The notes beneath the pieces were generated by a model. The model was given only the letters and a program-made list of their open reading frames with translations. It had not been told where the DNA came from and ran no database searches. A stretch of 36,674 bases of DNA from an uncultured Lachnospiraceae bacterium. Its GTDB lineage: Bacteria > Bacillota > Clostridia > Lachnospirales > Lachnospiraceae. The position numbers and the translations under genes are program-made. Positions 2,352 through 36,554 of the stretch are shown here, piece after piece (within the stretch, counting starts at the first letter, position 1; the number at the start of each line of letters is the position of its first letter). Location of the stretch: assembly GCA_902776305.1 (NCBI GenBank), contig CACYPS010000051.1:1-36674 (forward strand), given 5' to 3'.

Positions 2352-4826
2352 TCAATCTGCCGCTTTTTCGGGAAGCTCCTCCTCCCCTGTTATGCGAATC
2401 TCATTCCTCACAAGTCGGACCGTCACTTTGCCGCCCCTTATGACATCTCCGCTAAGTACAAGATCTGTCAAAGGATTCTCGATTCTTTCCTGAATTGCAC
2501 GTCTGAGAGGTCTCGCCCCGTATTTCTCTGAAAATCCCACTCTGGCAATCTCTTTCTTCACTGCAGGAGTAATCTTCAGATCAATATCAAGCTCCTTTTT
2601 TGCCCGATTAACAAGTTCCTTTGTCATGAGACCCACGATTTTTATGACCTCTTCCTGATTGAGCGGATGGAATACAATGATTTCATCAATTCGATTCAGG
2701 AATTCGGGCTTAAAGATACGTCTAACCTCATTCATGACCCCGCTTTTCATGCGCTCGTAATCCTGAGCCGCATCATTTCTCGCTCCGAAACCGAGCTTCT
2801 TCGGATCTACGATTGCCTGCGCTCCCGCATTGGATGTCATGATTATACAGGTATTCTTAAAATCACACCTTTTGCCGTGCGCATCGGTAATGTGTCCTTC
2901 GTCGAGCACCTGCAGTAAAATGTTGAATACATCGGGATGTGCTTTTTCAATCTCGTCGAAAAGAACCACGCTGTACGGATGTCTTCTGACCTGCTCGGAA
3001 AGCTGACCTCCCTCATCATAACCGACATACCCCGGCGGAGATCCGATCAGTTTGGATACGCTGTACTTTTCCATATACTCCGACATATCCACTCTGATCA
3101 TATTCTCTTCCGATCCGAACACAGCCTCAGCAAGAGCCTTGGACAGCTCCGTCTTACCGACGCCGGTCGGGCCGAGGAACAGGAAGGATCCAGTCGGCCG
3201 CATGGGGTCCTTTAATCCTACTCGTCCACGCTTTACCGCGGATGCGACCGCATGGACCGCCTCCTCCTGGCCGATAACTCTCCTGTGGAGTTTGTCCTCA
3301 AGTTTAACGAGCCTCTTCGATTCGGCTTCCGCAAGTCTCGATACCGGAATCTTAGTCCAGTCCGAAACAACATCCGCTATATCATTTTCGCTGACAGAAA
3401 GAATCCGAGCAGCTTCGGATCTGCTTATTCTTTTGCGGGCATCCGCATTTTTCTCTCTGAGTCTTTCCTGCTCCTGCTGTATTTCGCGCGCTTTCTCAAT
3501 ATTGCCGGCAATAACAGCTTTTTCCTTCTCTTCGGCCAAAGTGCGCAGCTTCTGCTCTTCAGCCATCATCTTCTGCAGACTTCTGACATCTCCCAGTCTG
3601 GCCTTGGCTGCAGCCTCATCAATCAGATCAATTGCTTTATCCGGAAGACATCTGTCATTGATATAGCGTTCCGAAAGATTTACGGCCGCCCTCAAGGCGT
3701 CGTCTTCTATCACAACTCCGTGATGTCTCTCATAGTACGGTCTTAAGCCCTTCAGTATGGCAAAAGTTTCCTCCTTAGTCGGCTCCTCTACCATGACAGG
3801 CTGAAATCTTCTCTCAAGCGCTGCATCCTTTTCGATATGCTTCCGATACTCATCAATCGTCGTAGCTCCGATCATCTGTATCTCGCCGCGGCTCAGTGAA
3901 GGCTTCAGTATATTGGAGGCATCCAAAGCGCCTTCCGCTCCGCCGGCACCGATGATCGTGTGCAATTCATCTATAAAAAGAAGGATATTACGATTCTGAG
4001 ACACTTCGCTGACAACATTTTTGATTCTCTCTTCAAATTCGCCCCTGTATTTCGTCCCCGCTACCATGCCGGAAAGGTCCAGCATTACAACTCTCATATT
4101 TCGGACAGATTCAGGAACAATACCCAGAGCAATTCTCTGTGCCAGCCCTTCCACGATGGCCGTCTTCCCTACGCCCGGTTCCCCAATAAGGCAGGGGTTA
4201 TTCTTCGTACGCCGGCTCAGGATCTGAATGACCCGCGTGATCTCCGTCTCTCTGCCCACGACCGGATCAAGTCCGTTCTCGGAAGCGATCTTAGTCAGAT
4301 CCCGGCTGTAAGCATCCAGTGTCGGCGTTCCGCGTTCATTATCCGGGCCGATCTTCCCGCTGAATATATCCTGTTCTCCGAGCTTGTTTTCGCTCCCCAT
4401 AGCGACGAGTGTGTCTGCGTAGAGCTTGCGCAGATCGATCCCCATGGTGTGAAGAAGTCTTGCCGCAACACAATCCGGGTCACCGAGCAGAGCGAGCAAT
4501 ATGTGCTCTGTCCCCGCTTCATCCGAATCAAATTCTCCTGCAATGCGCTGTGATTCATCAAGAATCTCCTGAGCACGGGGCGAGAACTCGCGGTCATCTA
4601 TGACCGCGACATTGCCCTGTGGCGCAATCAGGCGGTCGATCAGTTTCATAAGCTTTTCGGGAACTACACCTGCCTCAGACAATACTATGGAAGCGGTTCC
4701 CTCAACAGTATTCAGCAGACCTGCCAACAGATGTTCTGTACCTACGTAATTCTGCCTGCAATAGCCTGCCGTCTTTTTTGACTTTTCGATTGCAGACAAT
4801 GCCTCGTTGGTAAATCCCTGTTTCAT
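2352..4826 (-). CDS. clpC: ATP-dependent Clp protease ATP-binding subunit ClpC
   Basis: This is a Hsp100 AAA+ unfoldase that feeds substrates to ClpP. Its 824 residues show two N-terminal Clp repeats (about 1-145), a first AAA module with Walker A GEPGVGKT (215-222) and Walker B around FIDEL (285-288), a coiled middle region (about 415-475, the M-domain position of ClpC), and a second AAA module with Walker A GPTGVGKT (552-559). A ClpP-docking loop LGF is visible near 678-680. Its ATG overlaps the stop of the upstream GntR-type gene (ATGA), implying translational coupling. In many Firmicutes clpC follows ctsR-mcsA-mcsB; here neither McsA nor McsB is next to it. Confidence 0.97.
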
Positions 4827-5191
4827 TTATATTCCTCGCAAATCTCATCGATCAGCGCATGCACCTCATCGATGGTTATATTTTTACAATTCGCCCTGGC
4901 AAGCGCGATTGTAAGATCGTTTCGTAAATCCTGAAGCGCTCTCATTTTCTCCTTATCCACCAGGACAATGGCTCCACGCCTTCTGTCCACAGCAAGAAAC
5001 CCCTCATTTTTCAGAACAGTATAGGCCTTGTTGACAGTGTGCATATTGACTCCGACCTCTTCAGCCAGAGCTCTGACAGACGGAAGACTGTCGCCTTCTC
5101 TCAGATGCGAAGTGGCAATCTCCAAAATGATCTGATTGCACAGCTGCTGATAAATTGCCTCATCACTATTAAAGTCAATCTCAATAATCAT
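4823..5191 (-). CDS. GntR-family transcriptional regulator, YtrA-like, coupled to clpC
   Basis: This roughly 122-residue protein carries an N-terminal winged helix-turn-helix of the GntR family (IYQQLCNQIILEIATSHL, then LPSVRALAEEVGVNMHTVN) and a short C-terminal tail of about 45 residues, as in the YtrA subfamily. I chose the ATG at 5191 because MIIEIDFNSDEAIYQQ is the usual family start and AAGGGG precedes it; an upstream start at 5245 would add 18 atypical residues. Its TGA overlaps the clpC ATG by four bases. YtrA-type regulators usually repress their own operon, so it probably controls clpC. Two dyads lie upstream at 5244-5257 and 5279-5299. Confidence 0.9.
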   Translation of the reverse strand: MIIEIDFNSDEAIYQQLCNQIILEIATSHLREGDSLPSVRALAEEVGVNMHTVNKAYTVLKNEGFLAVDRRRGAIVLVDKEKMRALQDLRNDLTIALARANCKNITIDEVHALIDEICEEYK

Positions 5192-5243
5192 AAGGAGCCC
5201 CTTTCCGTCACAACTGAAATCCGCGGTTCTGTAGACCTGTAAC

Positions 5244-5257
5244 ACAGGACATCCTGT
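5244..5257. promoter_or_regulatory. Short palindrome upstream of gntR-clpC
   Basis: The sequence is ACAGGA-CA-TCCTGT, two perfect 6-bp arms. It lies in the leader region of the gntR-clpC operon and may be part of an operator. No functional evidence is available. Confidence 0.4.
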
Positions 5258-5278
5258 ACGTGTCTAATACGTTATCAT

Positions 5279-5299
5279 TGTTATACAGTAACTATAACA
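5279..5299. promoter_or_regulatory. Candidate operator of the GntR-clpC operon
   Basis: TGTTATA and TATAACA arms (7 bp each, perfect) are separated by 7 bases. The dyad lies about 90 bp upstream of the gntR ATG in the AT-rich segment where the promoter should be. GntR/YtrA proteins bind such spaced dyads as dimers; autoregulation is inference. Confidence 0.5.
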
Positions 5300-5315
5300 G
5301 TTATGATTGCAGATT

Positions 5316-6050
5316 TCAACCGACCCCCGCAGAACTGATAGTATAATAATACTGTTGTCCCAATAAATTATTGACGGAGGATTTCGGTGTCAGATGAAAG
5401 CTGTGGTTTATAAGAATTTTCCCGTGCACATCCGTCAACTGAGCAATCGCCTCGTAACTTCCGTCGTCATTCTTAACAGCGCTGACGAATTCGGGATAAC
5501 AGTCAGGTCTCGGATCATTTTTGACATAATAATTTCCGTCATCGTGCAGTGAAATTCTCGCAATCGTATCCGGAATCGGCGGCATAGCGACAGTCTCACC
5601 GTAAAGAACTCTTCCCACTTCACGAACGACATCCGCCCCGACGATAAGATATGCCTCATTCTTGTCATACGATGTTCCCGAAGCACGTGGTCCGTAAAGG
5701 CACAGATAATAATACATGGTTGTCCAGTAAACGACCGGGTCTGCCGGATTATAGCCGTAACTCGTGACGAATTCGACGACCATGATCGAATCAAGCGGTT
5801 TCAACATGCTTGTCAGGGTCTCATCAACGATTGTGGACTGCATCTGCTCGGTGCTTGTTTCCGAAACACTCTTATCGCTTACCGAATCATCCGCAGGTTT
5901 CTCTAATTTTTCGGTAACAGCTGCAGTCGTTTGCGGAGTCGTCTCTGCAGATGATTCCGCATGCGATTCGTCAGACGGTGATTTCCCGGAGGCACAGCCT
6001 GTAAGAGAAAGCACCAGAGCCATTATAAGTATTATAGCTTTCTTTTTCAT
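5316..6050 (-). CDS. Putative lipoprotein of unknown function
   Basis: The 244-residue protein starts with a lipoprotein signal peptide (charged MKKK, hydrophobic core, lipobox LTGC with C19). A Ser/Thr/Glu-rich linker covers about residues 20-75. A globular C-terminal part (about 80-244) has many aromatic residues (for example VYWTTMYYYLCLYGP). I do not recognise the C-terminal domain. AAGGAGAG precedes the ATG. It lies between rubredoxin and the gntR-clpC operon on the same strand, but with gaps of 205 and 125 bp, so it is probably its own unit. It should be exported and anchored on the outer face of the membrane. Confidence 0.85.
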   Translation of the reverse strand: MKKKAIILIMALVLSLTGCASGKSPSDESHAESSAETTPQTTAAVTEKLEKPADDSVSDKSVSETSTEQMQSTIVDETLTSMLKPLDSIMVVEFVTSYGYNPADPVVYWTTMYYYLCLYGPRASGTSYDKNEAYLIVGADVVREVGRVLYGETVAMPPIPDTIARISLHDDGNYYVKNDPRPDCYPEFVSAVKNDDGSYEAIAQLTDVHGKILINHSFHLTPKSSVNNLLGQQYYYTISSAGVG

Positions 6051-6255
6051 ACCGTCCGTCTCTCCTTCAAAGTAATCTTCATTAAGCCTCCACTACAATC
6101 CTGTCCGATTACCGGCGTTGATATCGAAATGGCTGCTATCTATGCAAATTTGTGATTTATTCAGCCTAAATGCATAAGAAGGCTGAATGCAGTTCCCTAC
6201 CGCCCATCCGGTAAGACCTGCTTTCAGCCCCCTGTTCTGTTCACAGTTCAAAGAT

Positions 6256-6414
6256 TCATTCTACTTCCGAGAATTCGTCTTTTCCTACGCCACAGAACGG
6301 ACATACCCAATCTTCCGGTACATCTTCCCATGCTGTTCCCGGTTCGATGCCGTTATCCGGATCACCGATTTCAGGATCATACTCATAGCCGCATACATCA
6401 CATACATACTTCAT
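6256..6414 (-). CDS. Rubredoxin
   Basis: This 52-residue protein reads [20 protein letters not shown], then the usual [18 protein letters not shown] and a short acidic tail. The two CxxCG motifs (C5, C8, C38, C41) form the single-iron site of rubredoxin, a soluble one-electron carrier used by anaerobes in oxygen and peroxide detoxification. A strong GGAGGT precedes the ATG. It is divergently placed from the gpx gene, which fits an oxidative-stress role, although shared regulation is only inferred. Confidence 0.95.
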
Positions 6415-6631
6415 AAATGCACCTCCATACTTTAAGTAATGGCATAGTCACTCTTATCTCCCGACCTTCGGAAGCAGAGATTTACCTGTTAGAATTATAC
6501 ACTATCATGCTCCAAAAAGACACCTGAAATAAAACTTTTATATTTTGCAACTACTCAGCACCGCATATAAGAGAATCGAGAAGTAATCCGAATTCCGGAT
6601 ACAGAATAGTTAGGATAATTTTAAAAAGCAC
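6415..6631. promoter_or_regulatory. Divergent intergenic region between rubredoxin and gpx
   Basis: This region carries the 5' leader of rubredoxin and, further right, the gpx promoter (listed separately). On the minus strand a TATAAT box at 6494-6499 lies about 80 bp before the rubredoxin ATG; no convincing -35 box is present at 17 bp. No other gene is seen. Confidence 0.4.
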
Positions 6632-29982: not shown

Positions 29983-30300
29983 CTTCTCATCCACAATATG
30001 TCTCTCATCCAGAAGACAGATTTTCTTTTCGGATGAATCAACGAATTAAAGAGTACAGTAAAGAAAAAAGCCTTCAGCTTTAAATAAGGCAAGTCAGGAC
30101 CACCGGCGTAGCCGGTGGCCTGCTCCACCCCTATAAGGGGTTGATTCCCGCTTGCGCCCGGAAGGCGCACTGAGGGTCTGCCAGCTGCGTAACATTCTCA
30201 GCTACCCCTAAAGGGGCTCTATCAGTGCTTCCTTCCACCGGCAAAGCCCCATAAGGGGCTTGCTGGTTTGCTTTGATTTCCTACTACCACTCCAAGTGGT
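29983..30300. other. Spacer and hairpin-rich right end of the IS200-like element
   Basis: The first 75 bp are plain spacer. A weak minus-strand terminator (GCCTT/AAGGC with a T run, about 30064-30090) follows. From 30100 there are six separate short hairpins: 30100-30118, 30127-30141, 30153-30169, 30205-30216, 30244-30261 and 30286-30300. The first, CCACCGGC-GTA-GCCGGTGG, is probably the right-end hairpin recognised by the transposase. No coding region is seen. Confidence 0.6.
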
Positions 30301-30722
30301 TCACTTCTTGTTTTTCCTCACCGGCTCACCCGTAAACGGGTCAATATACTCTACCAATGACATCTGGTCATACTCTAAGTCTTCTTTAAGCTGGTTCTGG
30401 ATGTACTTCTTTATCGCAGCAGTGTTCTTCCCTACAGTATCAACATAATACCCTCTGCACCAGAAATGTCTGTTCCCGTACTTATACTTCAGATTTGCAT
30501 GTTTTTCGAATATCATCAGCGAACTTTTTCCCTTCAGATACCCCATTATCTCTGATACCGAATATTTAGGCGGGATCCTTACAAGCATGTGGATGTGATC
30601 TGGGCAGGCCTCTGCCTCAATAATTTCTATCCCCTTTCTACGGCATAACGTTCCAAGTATCTGGCCTACGTCTGCCTTAATCTGCTTGTATATCACCTGC
30701 CGTCTGTACTTTGGCGCAAACA
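30301..30722 (-). CDS. tnpA: IS200-like Y1 transposase TnpA, 3' exon
   Basis: This holds about the last 140 residues of the transposase, starting within VFAPKYRR. The HUH motif is HIH in CPDHIHMLV and the catalytic Tyr is probably in AAIKKYIQNQ. The protein nicks and rejoins single-stranded DNA. Joined to the 55-nt exon at 32865-32919 it gives an uninterrupted 158-residue protein, the normal length of the family. Read alone, the frame starts inside the intron and gives false N-terminal residues (MGRDVQQCPSLTRL), so no independent start is called. Confidence 0.93.
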
Positions 30723-30763
30723 GTCGGGTAAGGGATGGACATTGCTGCACATCCCTCCCCAAA

Positions 30764-30797
30764 GAACGGAACGTGCGGCTTTCACCGCATTCCGCTC
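30764..30797 (-). ncRNA. Group II intron domain V (catalytic hairpin)
   Basis: The 34-nt hairpin begins GAGCGGAATGCGG, has a GAAA loop and closes with CCGCACGTTCCGTTC, the standard length and shape of domain V. A domain VI stem (about 30725-30760) follows, then the 3' splice site. Confidence 0.92.
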
Positions 30798-30803
30798 ACG
30801 CAT

Positions 30804-32318
30804 CTATAACGCGTAGTATCGACCACACGCAGCTGCACTTCTGGCATATACCCTCTTTCGCAATTCCTTATGCTTATATCTACGTTTCAAGAAATATTCC
30901 GGGTCGATGTAAGGGTTTTTTGTTCTGTCAAGTGAGGAAATTCTGACGATGGGCATATCGCTCATCTGAAACAGCACCTGTTTATCTGTCCTGAAGATCC
31001 ACTGCCTGTTAGCTTTAGAACGCCAGTACCTCCGTTTGATCCATTTATGCGGTTTCCTAGGATGTCTTCTCTTTGCCCATTTCCAAAGCATTTCCCACAT
31101 TCTGTGGTCAATAAGTGCGAATGTGCTCTTTGCGCAGACACAATGATGGTACTCTGCCCACCCTTTGGTAATTTCGTTCAGCTTGTGTATCAGCAAATCC
31201 TGTTCAGCCTGGCAGTACGTTTTAATTGTCAGGCTCAGTTTTTGCGTGACCTTCTTCTTGGATTTTACAGATGGTTGAATTAAGAGCTTCCCTTTGAACT
31301 TTCTGAAATTCCATCCGAGGAAGTCGAATCCTGCATTTATGTTTGTAATGACCGTCTTCTCCTCAGAGAGCTTAAGACCTCTTGTTTCCATGAACGATTC
31401 TACAAGTATTTTGACTTCCCTTAACACTTCTTCACTATCGGATGTTATGATAAAATCGTCAGCATATCTGCACAGATGGACTTTGTGCTTGTTGTAATTA
31501 GCATTGTAATGACCAGTGCTACTGGTGCTGTATTCCTTCTGTAATAGGTCTTCAAGTCCATCTAAAGTAAGATTGGCATATGTTGGACTGATAAGCCCTC
31601 CCTGCGGGCTTCCTTCCTCTGTAGGGAACAGCTTTTTCCTATCGATATACCCACATTTCAGGAACTGCCTCATAATTCTTTTGTCCATAGTGATATTGTT
31701 CAACATCCATTTGTGGCTTATGTTGTCAAAGCATCCTTTGATGTCGCCCTCCAGAATCCATTGAGGAGATCTCTTCCGCGACAGAAGTTTGAAGATATAT
31801 TCCATTGCATCCTGTGCGCTTCTTCCCTTACGGAATCCGAATGAACTCTTGTCCGCTGTTGCTTCTTCAACGGGTTCCAATGCCAGAAGTTGTAACCCCT
31901 GCATCGCCCTGTCGTGCATCGTTGGTATCCCGAGGGGGCGCTTCTCCTTCTTGCCATACTTTTCAATATAGACTCTTTTCAGTGGCAGGGCATGATAAGT
32001 CAGTGTGTTTAGGTCACGGACAGCCTCCATTTTTTCCTGAGGTGTTTTCCAAATGACCCCGTCAACCCCCGGGGTCTTTTTCCCTTTGTTCGTAGTCACT
32101 CGCCTAACCGCCAGTGCCTTAGCATAGAATGAATTGCATAAAAGCGTCTGAAGTCTTTTTACCAGTCTCCATTTGCCTGCTTGTACAGCCTTCACAATCC
32201 TGACTTGTAGCCTATTAACGTAGGATTCAGCAGCTATCCAGTCGATTTCCTTCCAGCTGATTCTTCTCTTTGTCTGCATTGTCCTCGCATTACGCGCCGT
32301 TGAACCTTGTGCATTCAT
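30804..32318 (-). CDS. ltrA: Group II intron reverse transcriptase/maturase
   Basis: The protein is 504 residues from the chosen ATG. It includes the N-terminal RT0 region, TTNKGKKTPGVDG, RPLGIPTMHDRAMQ, the RT motif with SPQGGLISPTYANLTLD, the catalytic YADDF (CRYADDFIITSD) and a maturase X domain with KGWAEYHHCVCAKSTF and KWAKRRHPRKPHKW. It helps fold and splice the intron RNA and copies it into DNA. No HNH zinc-knuckle endonuclease with paired CxxC motifs is seen; the tail ends ARSAAACGRYYAL just before domain V, so endonuclease function seems absent. A TTG at 32327 is an alternative start. Confidence 0.95.
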   Translation of the reverse strand: MNAQGSTARNARTMQTKRRISWKEIDWIAAESYVNRLQVRIVKAVQAGKWRLVKRLQTLLCNSFYAKALAVRRVTTNKGKKTPGVDGVIWKTPQEKMEAVRDLNTLTYHALPLKRVYIEKYGKKEKRPLGIPTMHDRAMQGLQLLALEPVEEATADKSSFGFRKGRSAQDAMEYIFKLLSRKRSPQWILEGDIKGCFDNISHKWMLNNITMDKRIMRQFLKCGYIDRKKLFPTEEGSPQGGLISPTYANLTLDGLEDLLQKEYSTSSTGHYNANYNKHKVHLCRYADDFIITSDSEEVLREVKILVESFMETRGLKLSEEKTVITNINAGFDFLGWNFRKFKGKLLIQPSVKSKKKVTQKLSLTIKTYCQAEQDLLIHKLNEITKGWAEYHHCVCAKSTFALIDHRMWEMLWKWAKRRHPRKPHKWIKRRYWRSKANRQWIFRTDKQVLFQMSDMPIVRISSLDRTKNPYIDPEYFLKRRYKHKELRKRVYARSAAACGRYYAL

Positions 32319-32864
32319 AAGTTCCAATTCTTTCTTGTGATTAGATACGCGCCAGACGTCAGCTTTCTTTCGAACGAGACAAATCTTGAATCTCTATCTG
32401 TTGCGTTACACAACAGCCTTCGCTTTTTCTGGCATCCTTCTCCTCCTGCGCATTGTGTCTTTCTTGCGATCGACCTACCCAACCGGATTGGGAGCGCATG
32501 AGGGTTTCCCAGTTCCGTCATCTGAATCGTTACATGCATTTAGGCTCCATCTTTAGACCGGAAGTGCTATGTGTCCATTCGGCACAGCGCACATAGAAAC
32601 CGCTGTGTCCTTGCCTTCTTACCGTTTTGGTCACGGTGTATCATCCACTTTCACCGCTTAAAGTATCACGATCCTTATTATGGTTCACATTACATTAGCC
32701 CTGTGCATAGTCCCTGGCGGTTGGGTGGATGTGGCTACCACTTACCCTCGTTGTCCCACTGCTTCACACCGTTCATCGCTTACTTGGCATTTCGTGGTAG
32801 GGATGTCGCGAATGGATACGACAGCGCATAATGCGCACTTCAGATGACGACCGTCAGGTCGCAC

Positions 32865-32919
32865 CTATGTGATACTTGCATTCCCATTTTGTGTGAGCTA
32901 AACTGTTTTCTGTACCCAT
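32865..32919 (-). CDS. tnpA: IS200-like Y1 transposase TnpA, 5' exon
   Basis: From ATG at 32919 this exon reads MGTENSLAHTKWECKYHI plus one base, and joins in phase with the 3' exon to give HTKWECKYHIVFAPKYRR, the usual N-terminus of the family. The intron boundary falls after ATAG. GGGAGGTG before the ATG lies in the arm of a long inverted repeat (32926-32937 with 32973-32984), which could hide the ribosome site. Confidence 0.92.
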
Positions 32920-32925
32920 CGGTAC

Positions 32926-32984
32926 ACCTCCCGTGATTTTATTTTGTGGTTTTGCAGACCCACATATATCTTATCACGGGAGGT
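32926..32984 (-). promoter_or_regulatory. Inverted repeat hiding the tnpA ribosome binding site
   Basis: Perfect 12-bp arms, ACCTCCCGTGAT (32926-32937) and ATCACGGGAGGT (32973-32984), are separated by 35 bases. In the mRNA the right arm contains the Shine-Dalgarno GGGAGGTG. IS200 of Salmonella is known to restrict transposase translation by a similar hairpin, so a comparable role is likely. Confidence 0.75.
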
Positions 32985-33050
32985 TTCTTATATCTAAAGA
33001 TCTTCCCACCCCCTGCATAGCAGGGGGATTTATTTTGTCTGTGACACATC

Positions 33051-33083
33051 AAAAGGTCCTGTGGTTTCCTCCACAGGACCTTT
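33051..33083. terminator. Terminator hairpin at the CRISPR trailer
   Basis: Perfect 13-bp arms AAAGGTCCTGTGG and CCACAGGACCTTT enclose a 6-base loop, 8 bp beyond the last repeat. On the minus strand TTTT follows, fitting an end for the crRNA precursor transcript. Confidence 0.75.
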
Positions 33084-33090
33084 CTATAGA

Positions 33091-34033
33091 GGCTCACCCC
33101 CGCACACGCGGGGAATACAAAGGCGTCCGTATCTCAGGACCTTCCTATAGAGGCTCACCCTCGCACACGCGGGGAATACATCCCTTTGTGAGCCTTGCAG
33201 TAGCCGTACATGGGCTCACCCCCGCACACGCGGGGAATACTTATAGGCTGCCTCGTCCTTGATGGCGTTCTTAGGCTCACCCCCGCACACGCGGGGAATA
33301 CTCATCGCTTACCAGATAAACATTTGCATATCCGGGCTCACCCCCGCACACGCGGGGAATACTTCGGACGGCGTACCGTTTACGTGGCACTTGTAGGCTC
33401 ACCCCCGCACACGCGGGGAATACGAGCTCGACTTTATCCCGGATGGTGACATCGTAGGCTCACCCCCGCACACGCGGGGAATACCACACAGCTATCGCCT
33501 CCAGTTATGAAGTTGTAGGCTCACCCCCGCACACGCGGGGAATACTGTCCAAATGCCGTTCCAAGACCTTTTAATCCAGGCTCACCCCCGCACACGCGGG
33601 GAATACGCTGAGCGGGATCTTGGAGTCACTTCTGATGTGGGCTCACCCCCGCACACGCGGGGAATACTCATGGGCGAGACTTTCAAATATGTCGCTCCCG
33701 GGCTCACCCCCGCACACGCGGGGAATACGAAGGGAACTTACAAGAGTGTCGCTGATTACCAGGCTCACCCCCGCACACGCGGGGAATACCAAAGCGGGCG
33801 AAGATATCCCGGAAGGTGAGTAGGCTCACCCCCGCACACGCGGGGAATACGAATGGGTATATAGACGGTCAGCAGATCTTACAGGCTCACCCCCGCACAC
33901 GCGGGGAATACGGATGCAGCAGCTCAGCATGTTGATGGCGTCGGGGCTCACCCCCGCACACGCGGGGAATACCTTTCTCGGAGTCCGATAGTAAGCGTCG
34001 TACTGGGCTCACCCCCGCACACGCGGGGAATAC
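33091..34033 (-). CRISPR. Type I-E CRISPR array, 16 repeats and 15 spacers
   Basis: Repeats of 28 nt start at 33091 and recur every 61 bp without exception up to 34006 (ends 34033), so all 15 spacers are 33 nt. On the plus strand the repeat starts GGCTCACC and ends GCGGGGAATAC; the minus strand starts GTATTCCCCGCG, matching the type I-E pattern with stem CCCCGC/GCGGGG. Fifteen repeats are identical. The second one (33152-33179) has one C-to-T change, at the leader-distal end. The base before each repeat is always A or G. The array lies downstream of cas6e in the same direction, so transcription runs from the cas side. Confidence 0.98.
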
Positions 34034-34200
34034 AGTAAAAAAAGCCCGTAAATTCAACATTCTCTGCTTTCAAAAACACACTTTTTATTCACTTTCGTTT
34101 ACTTAGTGCCAAGATACCACATCGAAATTCTAATGCGCAATTGCACCTCCTGCACCACTAATCAGCACTAAAGCAGCATATCATCTTTATGAATCATATA
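34034..34200 (-). promoter_or_regulatory. CRISPR leader
   Basis: This AT-rich stretch of about 167 bp lies between the cas6e stop and the first repeat. On the minus strand it ends with TTTACGGGCTTTTTTTACT just before the repeat. No cas1 or cas2 gene fits here. A leader normally carries the array promoter and the integration site; I could not pick a clear promoter. Confidence 0.75.
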
Positions 34201-34836
34201 TCAGAGCATATCATTCAGTACTTTAACTGCCGTTAGAAGTCCACATCCATATGTTCTTTTCCCACCGATACCCTTTTGCATGGCATCTCTAAGTTGATCA
34301 GCATCTGTCACTTTGAAGAGTCCCGAATAGGAGACCATGAATATTGGTATCCGTCGTCCATCCTTTACAAAATACACAGTCTCATGGCTGATATCTCGAA
34401 TGTTGCAGATAGACACGCCTCTCTCTTCCAATTTCTTTTTGGTCCAGTCTTCTGCTGAGAATGGATAATTCTTAGTTCGCCTTAAGTTCAGCGGCACATC
34501 CTTTCCATTCTTGCTTCCATCACTTTTATTAATGACTGGGTTTACTGAGATGCGAAATCTCATAAGATCTCCCGCATGGATTGTGCCTAAATAAGAATCA
34601 TAGGGTTTGCAGGATGGTCTGATCCTATCATTTCCAAACTGTATCTGGATATCTCCCAGATAAGGGATCTCGTTGCTTACTGAAAGTATACTAAAGTCTG
34701 GTTCCAAACGCCAAAGAACATGTGGTCTTACTCCTTCAACACTATTTTCAAAAGCAGCGTGGAGAAGTCCTCTGTTTTGCAGTGCTCTTGCCGTCTCCCT
34801 CTTCATCGGATCTAATTGAATTTTACTAATGAACAT
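34201..34836 (-). CDS. cas6e: Type I-E CRISPR endoribonuclease Cas6e
   Basis: The 211-residue Cas6e (Cse3/CasE) cuts the crRNA precursor in the repeat and stays bound to the product as a Cascade subunit. The start MFISKIQLDPMKRETARAL is typical; the likely catalytic His lies in NRGLLHAAFEN. The C-terminal Gly-rich GIGGKRTYGCGLLTAVKV matches the family's RNA-binding loop. GGAGAAGAG precedes the ATG at 34836, which overlaps the cas5e end by 11 bp. An upstream in-frame start at 34899 lies inside cas5e. Confidence 0.95.
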   Translation of the reverse strand: MFISKIQLDPMKRETARALQNRGLLHAAFENSVEGVRPHVLWRLEPDFSILSVSNEIPYLGDIQIQFGNDRIRPSCKPYDSYLGTIHAGDLMRFRISVNPVINKSDGSKNGKDVPLNLRRTKNYPFSAEDWTKKKLEERGVSICNIRDISHETVYFVKDGRRIPIFMVSYSGLFKVTDADQLRDAMQKGIGGKRTYGCGLLTAVKVLNDML

Positions 34837-35479
34837 TCTCTTCTCCAATCTGAAGTTCCTTTTCCATACGATATGAGTACTGCCTGTTATGGAAATCATA
34901 GCTCATCGGATTATCATGACGCATTCTATCTCCAGCACCTTCTGTCTCGACACATACTCGCATGTATCCGCTGTTCCTTCGATCAGACTGATCAGGCAGC
35001 ATCGATAATACTTCCTCTAAACTTCCGTCAAAGATTCCGATGACCATTCCCGGATCAGGAACACAGCTCCTTCTTCCAAGATAAGGAGGAAAGACCGGGT
35101 GTTTTAATGCCTCTTCACATCTTTCCAAGAATTCCCTGTCTCCTTCCAGACCCACAGTAAAGCAGGCATCCTGAAGATAGTATCTGTTCCCGATATAGGA
35201 GTCTTCTCTCTTGGAATAAACTTTCCCATTTTTATCCACGCTCCATATATGGGATGTCTGATAGTCCCGCATTATACTTCCCGGAGCATCACTTCTTACC
35301 CCAAACCGAAGGGCACGCAGATCAGAGATATCAGCATTACGTCTTCTCCCAAATGCTGCTGCAACGATCCCAAGCACACCACTCTTAGATGGCATAGTAT
35401 CTGTCTCATGGTCTCTTAGCTTTAAGCTTGTTCCCCAGGACTGAAATGGACCAGAGAGCTTAAGTGCTAACACTGCCAT
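34826..35479 (-). CDS. cas5e: Type I-E Cascade subunit Cas5e
   Basis: The 217-residue protein (CasD) binds the 5' handle of the crRNA in Cascade. Its N-terminus LALKLSGPFQSWGTSLKLRDHETDTMPSKSG-like pattern, with the usual SGPFQSWG and PSKSGVLG, is diagnostic, and PPYLGRRSCVP fits the central segment. The stop overlaps cas6e by 11 bp and the start is 1 bp from the cas7e stop, so the three genes form one operon. Confidence 0.96.
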   Translation of the reverse strand: MAVLALKLSGPFQSWGTSLKLRDHETDTMPSKSGVLGIVAAAFGRRRNADISDLRALRFGVRSDAPGSIMRDYQTSHIWSVDKNGKVYSKREDSYIGNRYYLQDACFTVGLEGDREFLERCEEALKHPVFPPYLGRRSCVPDPGMVIGIFDGSLEEVLSMLPDQSDRRNSGYMRVCVETEGAGDRMRHDNPMSYDFHNRQYSYRMEKELQIGEENVH

Positions 35480-35480
35480 A

Positions 35481-36554
35481 TTACAGCCTCCTATTGATTT
35501 CTTCTTCTACCTGCGCACAAAGATCCTTTAAGGATACTTCTCCTAATGACCATTTCCGGACAGGACTTCCATAAAGACGGCTTATCTTCTCCTCGTACTG
35601 AGACATCTCATGCATTGCATCCTGACAAATGTTTTTGCCGTCAATTGCTTTTGAAAAAGCAGGCGCAAAACTGACAGGGACATCATCCCTCAGCTCAACT
35701 ACAACATTCTCCGGAAGGGTCATGTTCGCATAGGCATTTATACTTCCGGTGGGCATGGATAGTACGAACGCTTCAAGGAACTGGCTCGCGGCTTTTGCAG
35801 CATCTACATTGTATTCCTCGTTACGGAGCTCTGATCCCTTTGATAAGTTAATATCCGCAAAACGATATAAAACACCCGAATTGAATAGTTTTGTATCGAG
35901 ATAGTCACTTCCACCAAGGGCCTCTTCTTGTTTCACATCGCCTACAACTGTAAAATAGTCAGGTTCTTCGTAGACTTCATTTACTGAAAAAGAATGGGCC
36001 ATTTGGCAGGCTGCATCATAATTCAAGCTTGGATCACTGGCGAACATACGACCAAAGAGTAATTCACTGACTGACGGTCTGTCCTTGACTGCTTGCGATA
36101 CCTTATTGCTGAAAGTCCTTTCGTTTTCCAGTTTTTCTTTGTTCTCCTCCTGTTGAAAACGTTTTTTCAGGACCTCATAAAGAGAATCGATCTGTTCTTT
36201 ACTAAAGAATGCAGATGTATTCTTGGCAGTGTCCTTCTCTGAAATAATATTGGCCTGTCCTAACCATTTCTTTACGAACGCTGTTGCCTGTTGGTCATTG
36301 CAGATTTCTTCACTGACAAGTCTGTCAGAGAGCATCTTAGAAATGAACTTGGTCCTGATCCCAGTATCTCCATATCTTTCTTTCATATACATCCTGACAG
36401 CACGCTTCCAGCATTGTGAACTGACACGCATACGGGATGTCCCGCCATACATGCAGGTCTTAGGTGTCCCCGTATCATCTCTGTTAATACAGCTCACAGG
36501 AACCACCTGAAGGACGTGAATACATAAGTACATTGATGTTGAATTAGATTCCAT
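35481..36554 (-). CDS. cas7e: Type I-E Cascade backbone subunit Cas7e
   Basis: The 357-residue protein (CasC/Cse4) matches the family length of about 360. Landmarks include the N-terminal IHVLQVVPVSCINRDDTGTP and GGTSRMRVSSQCWKRAVR, the central FGRMFASDPSLNYDAACQMAHS, and FNSGVLYRFADINLS. Six copies form the crRNA-binding backbone of Cascade. AAAGGAG precedes the ATG. The gene before it should be cse2; the window ends about 120 bp upstream. Confidence 0.96.
   Translation of the reverse strand: MESNSTSMYLCIHVLQVVPVSCINRDDTGTPKTCMYGGTSRMRVSSQCWKRAVRMYMKERYGDTGIRTKFISKMLSDRLVSEEICNDQQATAFVKKWLGQANIISEKDTAKNTSAFFSKEQIDSLYEVLKKRFQQEENKEKLENERTFSNKVSQAVKDRPSVSELLFGRMFASDPSLNYDAACQMAHSFSVNEVYEEPDYFTVVGDVKQEEALGGSDYLDTKLFNSGVLYRFADINLSKGSELRNEEYNVDAAKAASQFLEAFVLSMPTGSINAYANMTLPENVVVELRDDVPVSFAPAFSKAIDGKNICQDAMHEMSQYEEKISRLYGSPVRKWSLGEVSLKDLCAQVEEEINRRL

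Follow-up and report, generated by a model that had tools for sequence, protein, structure and literature searches.

Group II introns nested in insertion sequences (IS) are already known. In T. elongatus, F4 group II introns sit at a conserved site of ISEL1, an element of the IS200 family; in the passages of Mohr et al. 2010 (PMC2882425) that treat them, these introns are ORF-less, were tested with the proteins of other introns and belong to one genome. In Sinorhizobium meliloti, RmInt1 resides in ISRm2011-2, and a section of PMC4238363 proposes that its splicing limits the host IS. RmInt1 is of class IIB3/D, is endonuclease-free and prefers the lagging-strand template, according to the corresponding sections of PMC8914252. 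IStrons such as CdISt1 combine a splicing intron with a transposon of the IS200/IS605 family, the intron being a group I intron fused to the IS, and the element can splice out of its host gene (described in part of PMC4227781). With F4/ISEL1 and RmInt1 on record, the kind of nesting reported here is therefore not new. What the present locus adds is an RT-bearing intron clade at the HI|V codons of tnpA and a testable link between this target and a missing endonuclease. A report of such a clade was not recognised in the open-licence literature.

The locus lies on contig CACYPS010000051.1 of assembly GCA_902776305.1, from an uncultured Lachnospiraceae bacterium. The window, by which we mean the whole stretch of DNA that was analysed, comprises positions 1-36,674 of the forward strand (36,674 nt). 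A 2142-nt group II intron on the minus strand interrupts an IS200-type tnpA at HI|V and is inserted in the sense orientation relative to tnpA. As in the F4/ISEL1 system, the intron is found in an element of the IS200 family at a site that is conserved, a likeness drawn here at the level of the element. Unlike F4, it carries its own RT and belongs to a clade whose members occupy these codons in four genera. It shares with RmInt1 an apparent homing to an IS, a protein without an endonuclease domain and a probable lagging-strand template orientation, though the IS is a different one. The closeness of its protein to 6me0, rather than a direct comparison, suggests that its lineage is separate from that of RmInt1. 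Unlike in IStrons, the intron is a group II intron inserted within tnpA itself; in the window the only Rfam match at the gathering threshold was to group II, and a group I ribozyme was not found. The two nested elements had been predicted from the sequence with their coordinates and joints, and the exons, the intron ends and the restored 158-aa frame all agreed with that prediction. The features are as follows, all on the minus strand.

30092..33049, minus: whole IS200-type element with the intron, ends approximate, placed by eye where related copies stop matching, with hairpins at both ends
33009..33027, minus: left-end hairpin, CCCCCTGC TAT GCAGGGGG, from the DNA fold and a stem region conserved in copies
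32865..32919, minus: tnpA exon 1, starting with ATG and ending TATCACATAG, encoding MGTENSLAHTKWECKYHI and the first base of V
32865..32877, minus: IBS2 AAGTAT (32872-32877) and IBS1 CACATAG (32865-32871), at the end of exon 1
30723..32864, minus: group II intron, GTGCG...GAC, running GTGCGACC...TACCCGAC, 2142 nt
32661..32666, minus: EBS2 ATACTT (intron nt 199-204), left unpaired by the consensus fold of domain I
32590..32596, minus: EBS1 CTATGTG (intron nt 269-275), in the loop at the tip of a stem of domain I
30804..32318, minus: intron-encoded RT/maturase with RVT_N, RVT_1 with YADD, and GIIM; C-terminus not endonuclease-like
30723..30799, minus: domains V and VI of the intron, with the bulged A as the seventh base counted from the 3′ end
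30301..30722, minus: tnpA exon 2, starting TGTTTGCG and ending TGA, from the rest of V to the stop
30093..30124, minus: right-end hairpin, core CCACCGGC TAC GCCGGTGG at 30100-30118, from the DNA fold and conserved in copies

Without the intron the IS is about 816 bp long. It has the subterminal hairpins of the IS200 group at both ends (left, DNA fold of -9.7 kcal/mol, z -3.45; right, -15 kcal/mol, z -3.36), and for each of them one of 200 shuffles folded equally well. The joined exons read MGTENSLAHTKWECKYHIVFAPKYRR... and encode a TnpA of 158 aa, while the unspliced frame ends at a stop after 21 aa. The joined protein matched the NCBIfam model NF033573 for IS200/IS605 transposases with 160.1 bits (cut-off 55). 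The exon 2 frame alone matched Y1_Tnp with 128.3 bits, which identifies a Y1 HUH transposase, and 2ec2, 2f4f and 2a6m were found as relatives in the PDB. We take PDHIHM in exon 2 to be the HUH motif and IKKYIQNQ to be the tyrosine helix.

A search of the host genome found a single copy of the IS, the one with the intron, and no complete intron-free sibling. Contig 41 of this genome (1501-1597) has a remnant of the left end of an IS of this lineage, 80% identical, which stops within the first tnpA codons. Four further pieces of tnpA, located where contigs end, are of other subfamilies. In two other genomes, matches were confined to one end of the IS (G028:C82:132326-132468, right end, 91%; G007:C44:8223-8387, left end, 80%) and are possible solitary IS ends. 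The host genome also contains a different group II intron on contig 121 (Rfam D1-D4-5), at the contig end and with an interrupted RT frame, which follows sequence that, judged by eye, resembles the gene of a small conjugative pilin. The IS itself lies just beyond the array of a type I-E-like CRISPR locus (window 33091-36554; 16 repeats of 28 bp and 15 spacers of 33 bp), whose genes include CRISPR_assoc, presumably of the Cas6e type, Cas5 and CT1975 (Cas7-type). No match within 7 mismatches was found between the 15 spacers and window positions 30001-33060.

Intron-free copies of the IS were sought in 200 genomes of the same family, 52 of which gave some match to the IS plus intron. Five intron-free copies (L013-L017), from five of these 52 genomes, were aligned. 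Exon 1 passed straight into exon 2 at the predicted point in all five, as expected from the original prediction. The exact letters CACATAG|TGTTTGCG were present in none of them, but the codons corresponded. In one of the copies (L014) the tnpA frame is interrupted further downstream by a stop codon.

The ends of the intron, GTGCG...GAC, agree with the group II ends (GUGYG at 5′ and AY at 3′). Domains V and VI matched Rfam RF00029 at 30799-30723 (63.3 bits, E 2.4e-10), and the bulged A of domain VI was unpaired in the fold. The predicted ends, domain V and RT gene were thus confirmed, the last by RVT_N, RVT_1 and GIIM. The proposed covariance search succeeded only in part: domains V-VI were detected, but the domain I model group-II-D1D4-7 reached 21.4 bits in the window, below its threshold of 34. 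The same model reached threshold in several more distant relatives. A domain I consensus fold was obtained from an alignment of the 5′ regions of four introns, those of the window copy (W) and of three other genomes with related introns (G184, G205 and G690). In this fold 26 of 141 predicted pairs were kept although one or more of the sequences had changed at both positions of the pair; in the alignment of domains V/VI the corresponding figure was 4 of 38. EBS1 lay in the terminal loop of a stem (columns 266-276), and the bases around and within EBS2 were unpaired, a domain I arrangement with EBS1 and EBS2 pairing to the 5′ exon, as in group II introns. The complements predicted for IBS1 and IBS2 hold, with 7/7 pairs between CACATAG and CTATGTG and 6/6 between AAGTAT and ATACTT. 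When the first 360 nt of the intron were shuffled base by base 20,000 times, both EBS words turned up in 0.085% of the shuffled sequences. EBS1 pairs with its own IBS1 at all seven positions in W and, counting G-U pairs, also in G184 and G690, but only at six of the seven in G205. For EBS2 the pairing was 6/6 in three introns and 4/6 in G184. In W and G690 the own IBS1 fits better than that of the other. At the sites of G184 and G690, the EBS1 of G205 would form all seven pairs (with G-U), one more than at its own site. The intron is probably of subclass IIB, an assignment that rests on the closest solved intron-encoded protein (6me0) and on the D1D4-7 matches in distant relatives; EBS3 was not located.

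The RT/maturase has 504 aa from ATG, or 507 from an upstream TTG. It matched TIGR04416 with 340.9 bits (cut-off 300) and has both RT and maturase domains. The closest solved protein is 6me0 (E 2.3e-139), which we take to be the T.el4h protein of T. elongatus, a further likeness to the system in that species. A C-terminal DNA endonuclease is found in many, but not all, intron-encoded proteins of group II. The window protein has no HNH match in Pfam, and by eye a CxxC zinc/HNH-like C-terminus was present in none of the proteins of W, G184, G205 and G690, which end soon after the maturase region. Among 19 other RT relatives, also judged by eye, this zinc region was present in 13 and absent from five (L011, L061, L062, L063 and L077), and one (L069) was cut off. 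Its absence is therefore not unique to the introns in tnpA. Two of the five, L061 and L063, branch near them in the RT tree, at a weakly placed fork. Two others lie in or close to transposase genes of other types. L062 (G461, 510-2633) is a related intron that splits an IS3-type transposase at HSDQGTQ|FASREF, with rve on both sides of the intron. L011 (Desulfobacteraceae OB14, 3881-6451; 48% identity in the RT) lies upstream of a DDE transposase frame, which begins about 95 bases downstream of domain VI.

Relatives were collected by RT searches, in which 8 of 397 genomes of the family passed E 1e-110 and 15 of 392 genomes of the order passed E 1e-130. Only W, G184, G205 and G690 had at least 72% identity in these searches, the rest having 50-56%. 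All four introns lie at HI|V of tnpA, and their hosts belong to four genera; the relatives with 50-56% identity and readable flanks were in other genes or intergenic. A search of 291 genomes at class level found no further member of the clade, and beyond the own genome one genome passed E 1e-150, at 53% identity. Among plasmids, each of the 1489 records with a match at or below E 1e-80 had less than 60% identity, and the scan of viral_contigs for the RT gave two pattern matches, neither of which was confirmed as a relative. A pattern for the expected junction, with the tnpA codons YH[IV] directly before GTGYG, matched nine times in the 397 family genomes. Three of the matches were the introns already described, and the other six were in other sequence, with no Rfam intron match, a number in keeping with the seven matches of the reversed control pattern. 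Further domain V/VI matches from the search of 200 family genomes were judged by eye. In G119, the domain V/VI matches were followed by sequence like the L044-L047 sites, and in G003 a similar RT end with domains V/VI was followed by non-tnpA sequence. Given the flanks in G003, the intron lineage may not be tied to the tnpA site.

The RTs of the four introns formed one clade with support of 100/100 in a tree of 23 rows, two of the clade rows being fragments of interrupted frames. Identities among the four members were 74-83% for the intron DNA and 51-94% for TnpA. A TnpA protein tree of 22 rows, from which matches not spanning about residues 14-118 had been removed, was too weak to resolve and is compatible with a single origin. 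For a tnpA DNA tree, 13 of these rows were picked for closeness and G184 was left out. In this tree the three intron-bearing rows required three changes across well-supported branches. The tnpA of G205 grouped with that of the intron-free copy L017 (100/99), and the tnpA of G690 with those of the intron-free copies L023 and L027 (100/99). We set dN/dS aside because synonymous sites were saturated in most pairs. The idea of purifying selection on the intron-bearing tnpA since insertion was dropped, as insertion dates were not established.

Because the RTs form one clade while the host tnpA genes belong to different lineages, the intron probably entered this conserved tnpA motif repeatedly, repeated loss being the less economical alternative. 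A common site could also reflect common descent, if intron and IS were one old unit that spread together. Such co-inheritance would suit W and G205, whose TnpA proteins are closely similar (93.6% of amino acids) and whose DNA identity is comparable in tnpA (78.1%) and intron (74.3%). The unresolved protein tree allows it, and the three changes on the DNA tree could equal one gain and two losses. However, G205 and G690 group with intron-free copies, and a single tnpA clade of W and G205 was rejected (p-AU 3.6e-6; the pair was chosen after the identities had been seen). In addition, G184 and G690 have the closest introns (82.9% identical) yet distant TnpA proteins (52.3%). We thus regard a co-inherited composite element as quite improbable.

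The strand orientation of the target was examined by GC skew in the window and 18 chosen regions (three others with the intron and 15 intron-free ones among the 200-genome matches). The skew of the tnpA sense strand was positive in all 19 regions, though only 0.007 in G205, and this strand is therefore probably the lagging-strand template. Of the frames of at least 200 codons in the same flanks, about 71% by length run in the same direction as tnpA, so that ordinary gene orientation explains part of the skew. Such an orientation would match the preference described for the endonuclease-free RmInt1 in the part of PMC8914252 mentioned above. More frequent transposition of IS200/605 elements into the lagging strand is cited in a passage of PMC7923331, where the authors' own element is an exception. 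Since no endonuclease domain is apparent in the protein, the most likely primer would be nascent DNA at the replication fork. We infer a retrohoming that is endonuclease-independent, as described for RmInt1. A more specific reading is that the clade can dispense with an endonuclease because IS200 biology delivers tnpA in single-stranded form, as the sense strand on the lagging template or as excised circles, the intron following the single-strand cycle of the transposon. This reading is rather unlikely, and it is weakened by the five other relatives without the zinc region, two of which (L061 and L063) branch nearby.

Taken as a whole, the locus is very probably explained by the homing of a mobile intron, probably of IIB type and with its own maturase/RT, to an IS200 tnpA, which it entered at the conserved HI|V codons and in the sense direction. 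Splicing of the tnpA transcript would rely on the pairing of EBS1 with IBS1 and of EBS2 with IBS2 and on help from the maturase, and would restore TnpA. The freed lariat and protein would then reverse-splice into other tnpA copies bearing the motif. Priming would come from nascent DNA at the replication fork, a route to which a sense strand on the lagging-strand template is suited. The anatomy, the covarying fold, the empty sites, the clade sharing one site, its incongruence with the tnpA tree, the missing endonuclease-like region and the strand orientation are read from the sequence. It is plausible that the intron splices and that TnpA depends on the maturase, and we infer retrohoming by the fork-primed route.

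The state of the four copies bears on whether both elements still work, as had been suggested for the window. There the RT frame, the TnpA exons, the HUH motif, domains V/VI, the EBS and IBS sequences and both end hairpins are intact, and the early stop of the unspliced frame fits a transposase that needs splicing. The relatives fit less well. G184 has one stop codon inside the RT and a TnpA that reads PDHVRM in place of the HUH motif; the RT of G205 has frame changes, with the tnpA exons open; in G690 the RT frame is open, and TnpA, at 129 aa, is shorter than the 156-aa protein of the intron-free relative L023. With the RT, the HUH motif or the length of TnpA altered in each of the others, no other copy is as complete as that of the window. 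An intron that no longer splices or moves, leaving the IS frozen, would account for the single copy, for the interrupted RT in two of three relatives, and for the changed HUH motif and the shortened TnpA. We consider such a relic unlikely in view of the intact parts listed for the window and of the RT frame of G690, which is also open. Poor splicing that limits TnpA, a truce of the kind proposed for RmInt1 and ISRm2011-2 in the cited section of PMC4238363, is possible but on balance doubtful, and would be compatible with the homing and splicing scheme. It would agree with the stop after 21 aa and with the failure to find a complete sibling of the IS in the host genome. However, low copy number has many causes, and the assembly contigs end inside tnpA genes of other subfamilies.

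The introns at HI|V and their relatives provide a natural comparison set, with four genera, several tnpA lineages, empty sites, and RTs with and without an endonuclease-like region. With this set one may study the adaptation of a retroelement to a transposon as its target, a possible association between a missing endonuclease and a target available in single-stranded form, and a possible control of host IS activity by splicing.
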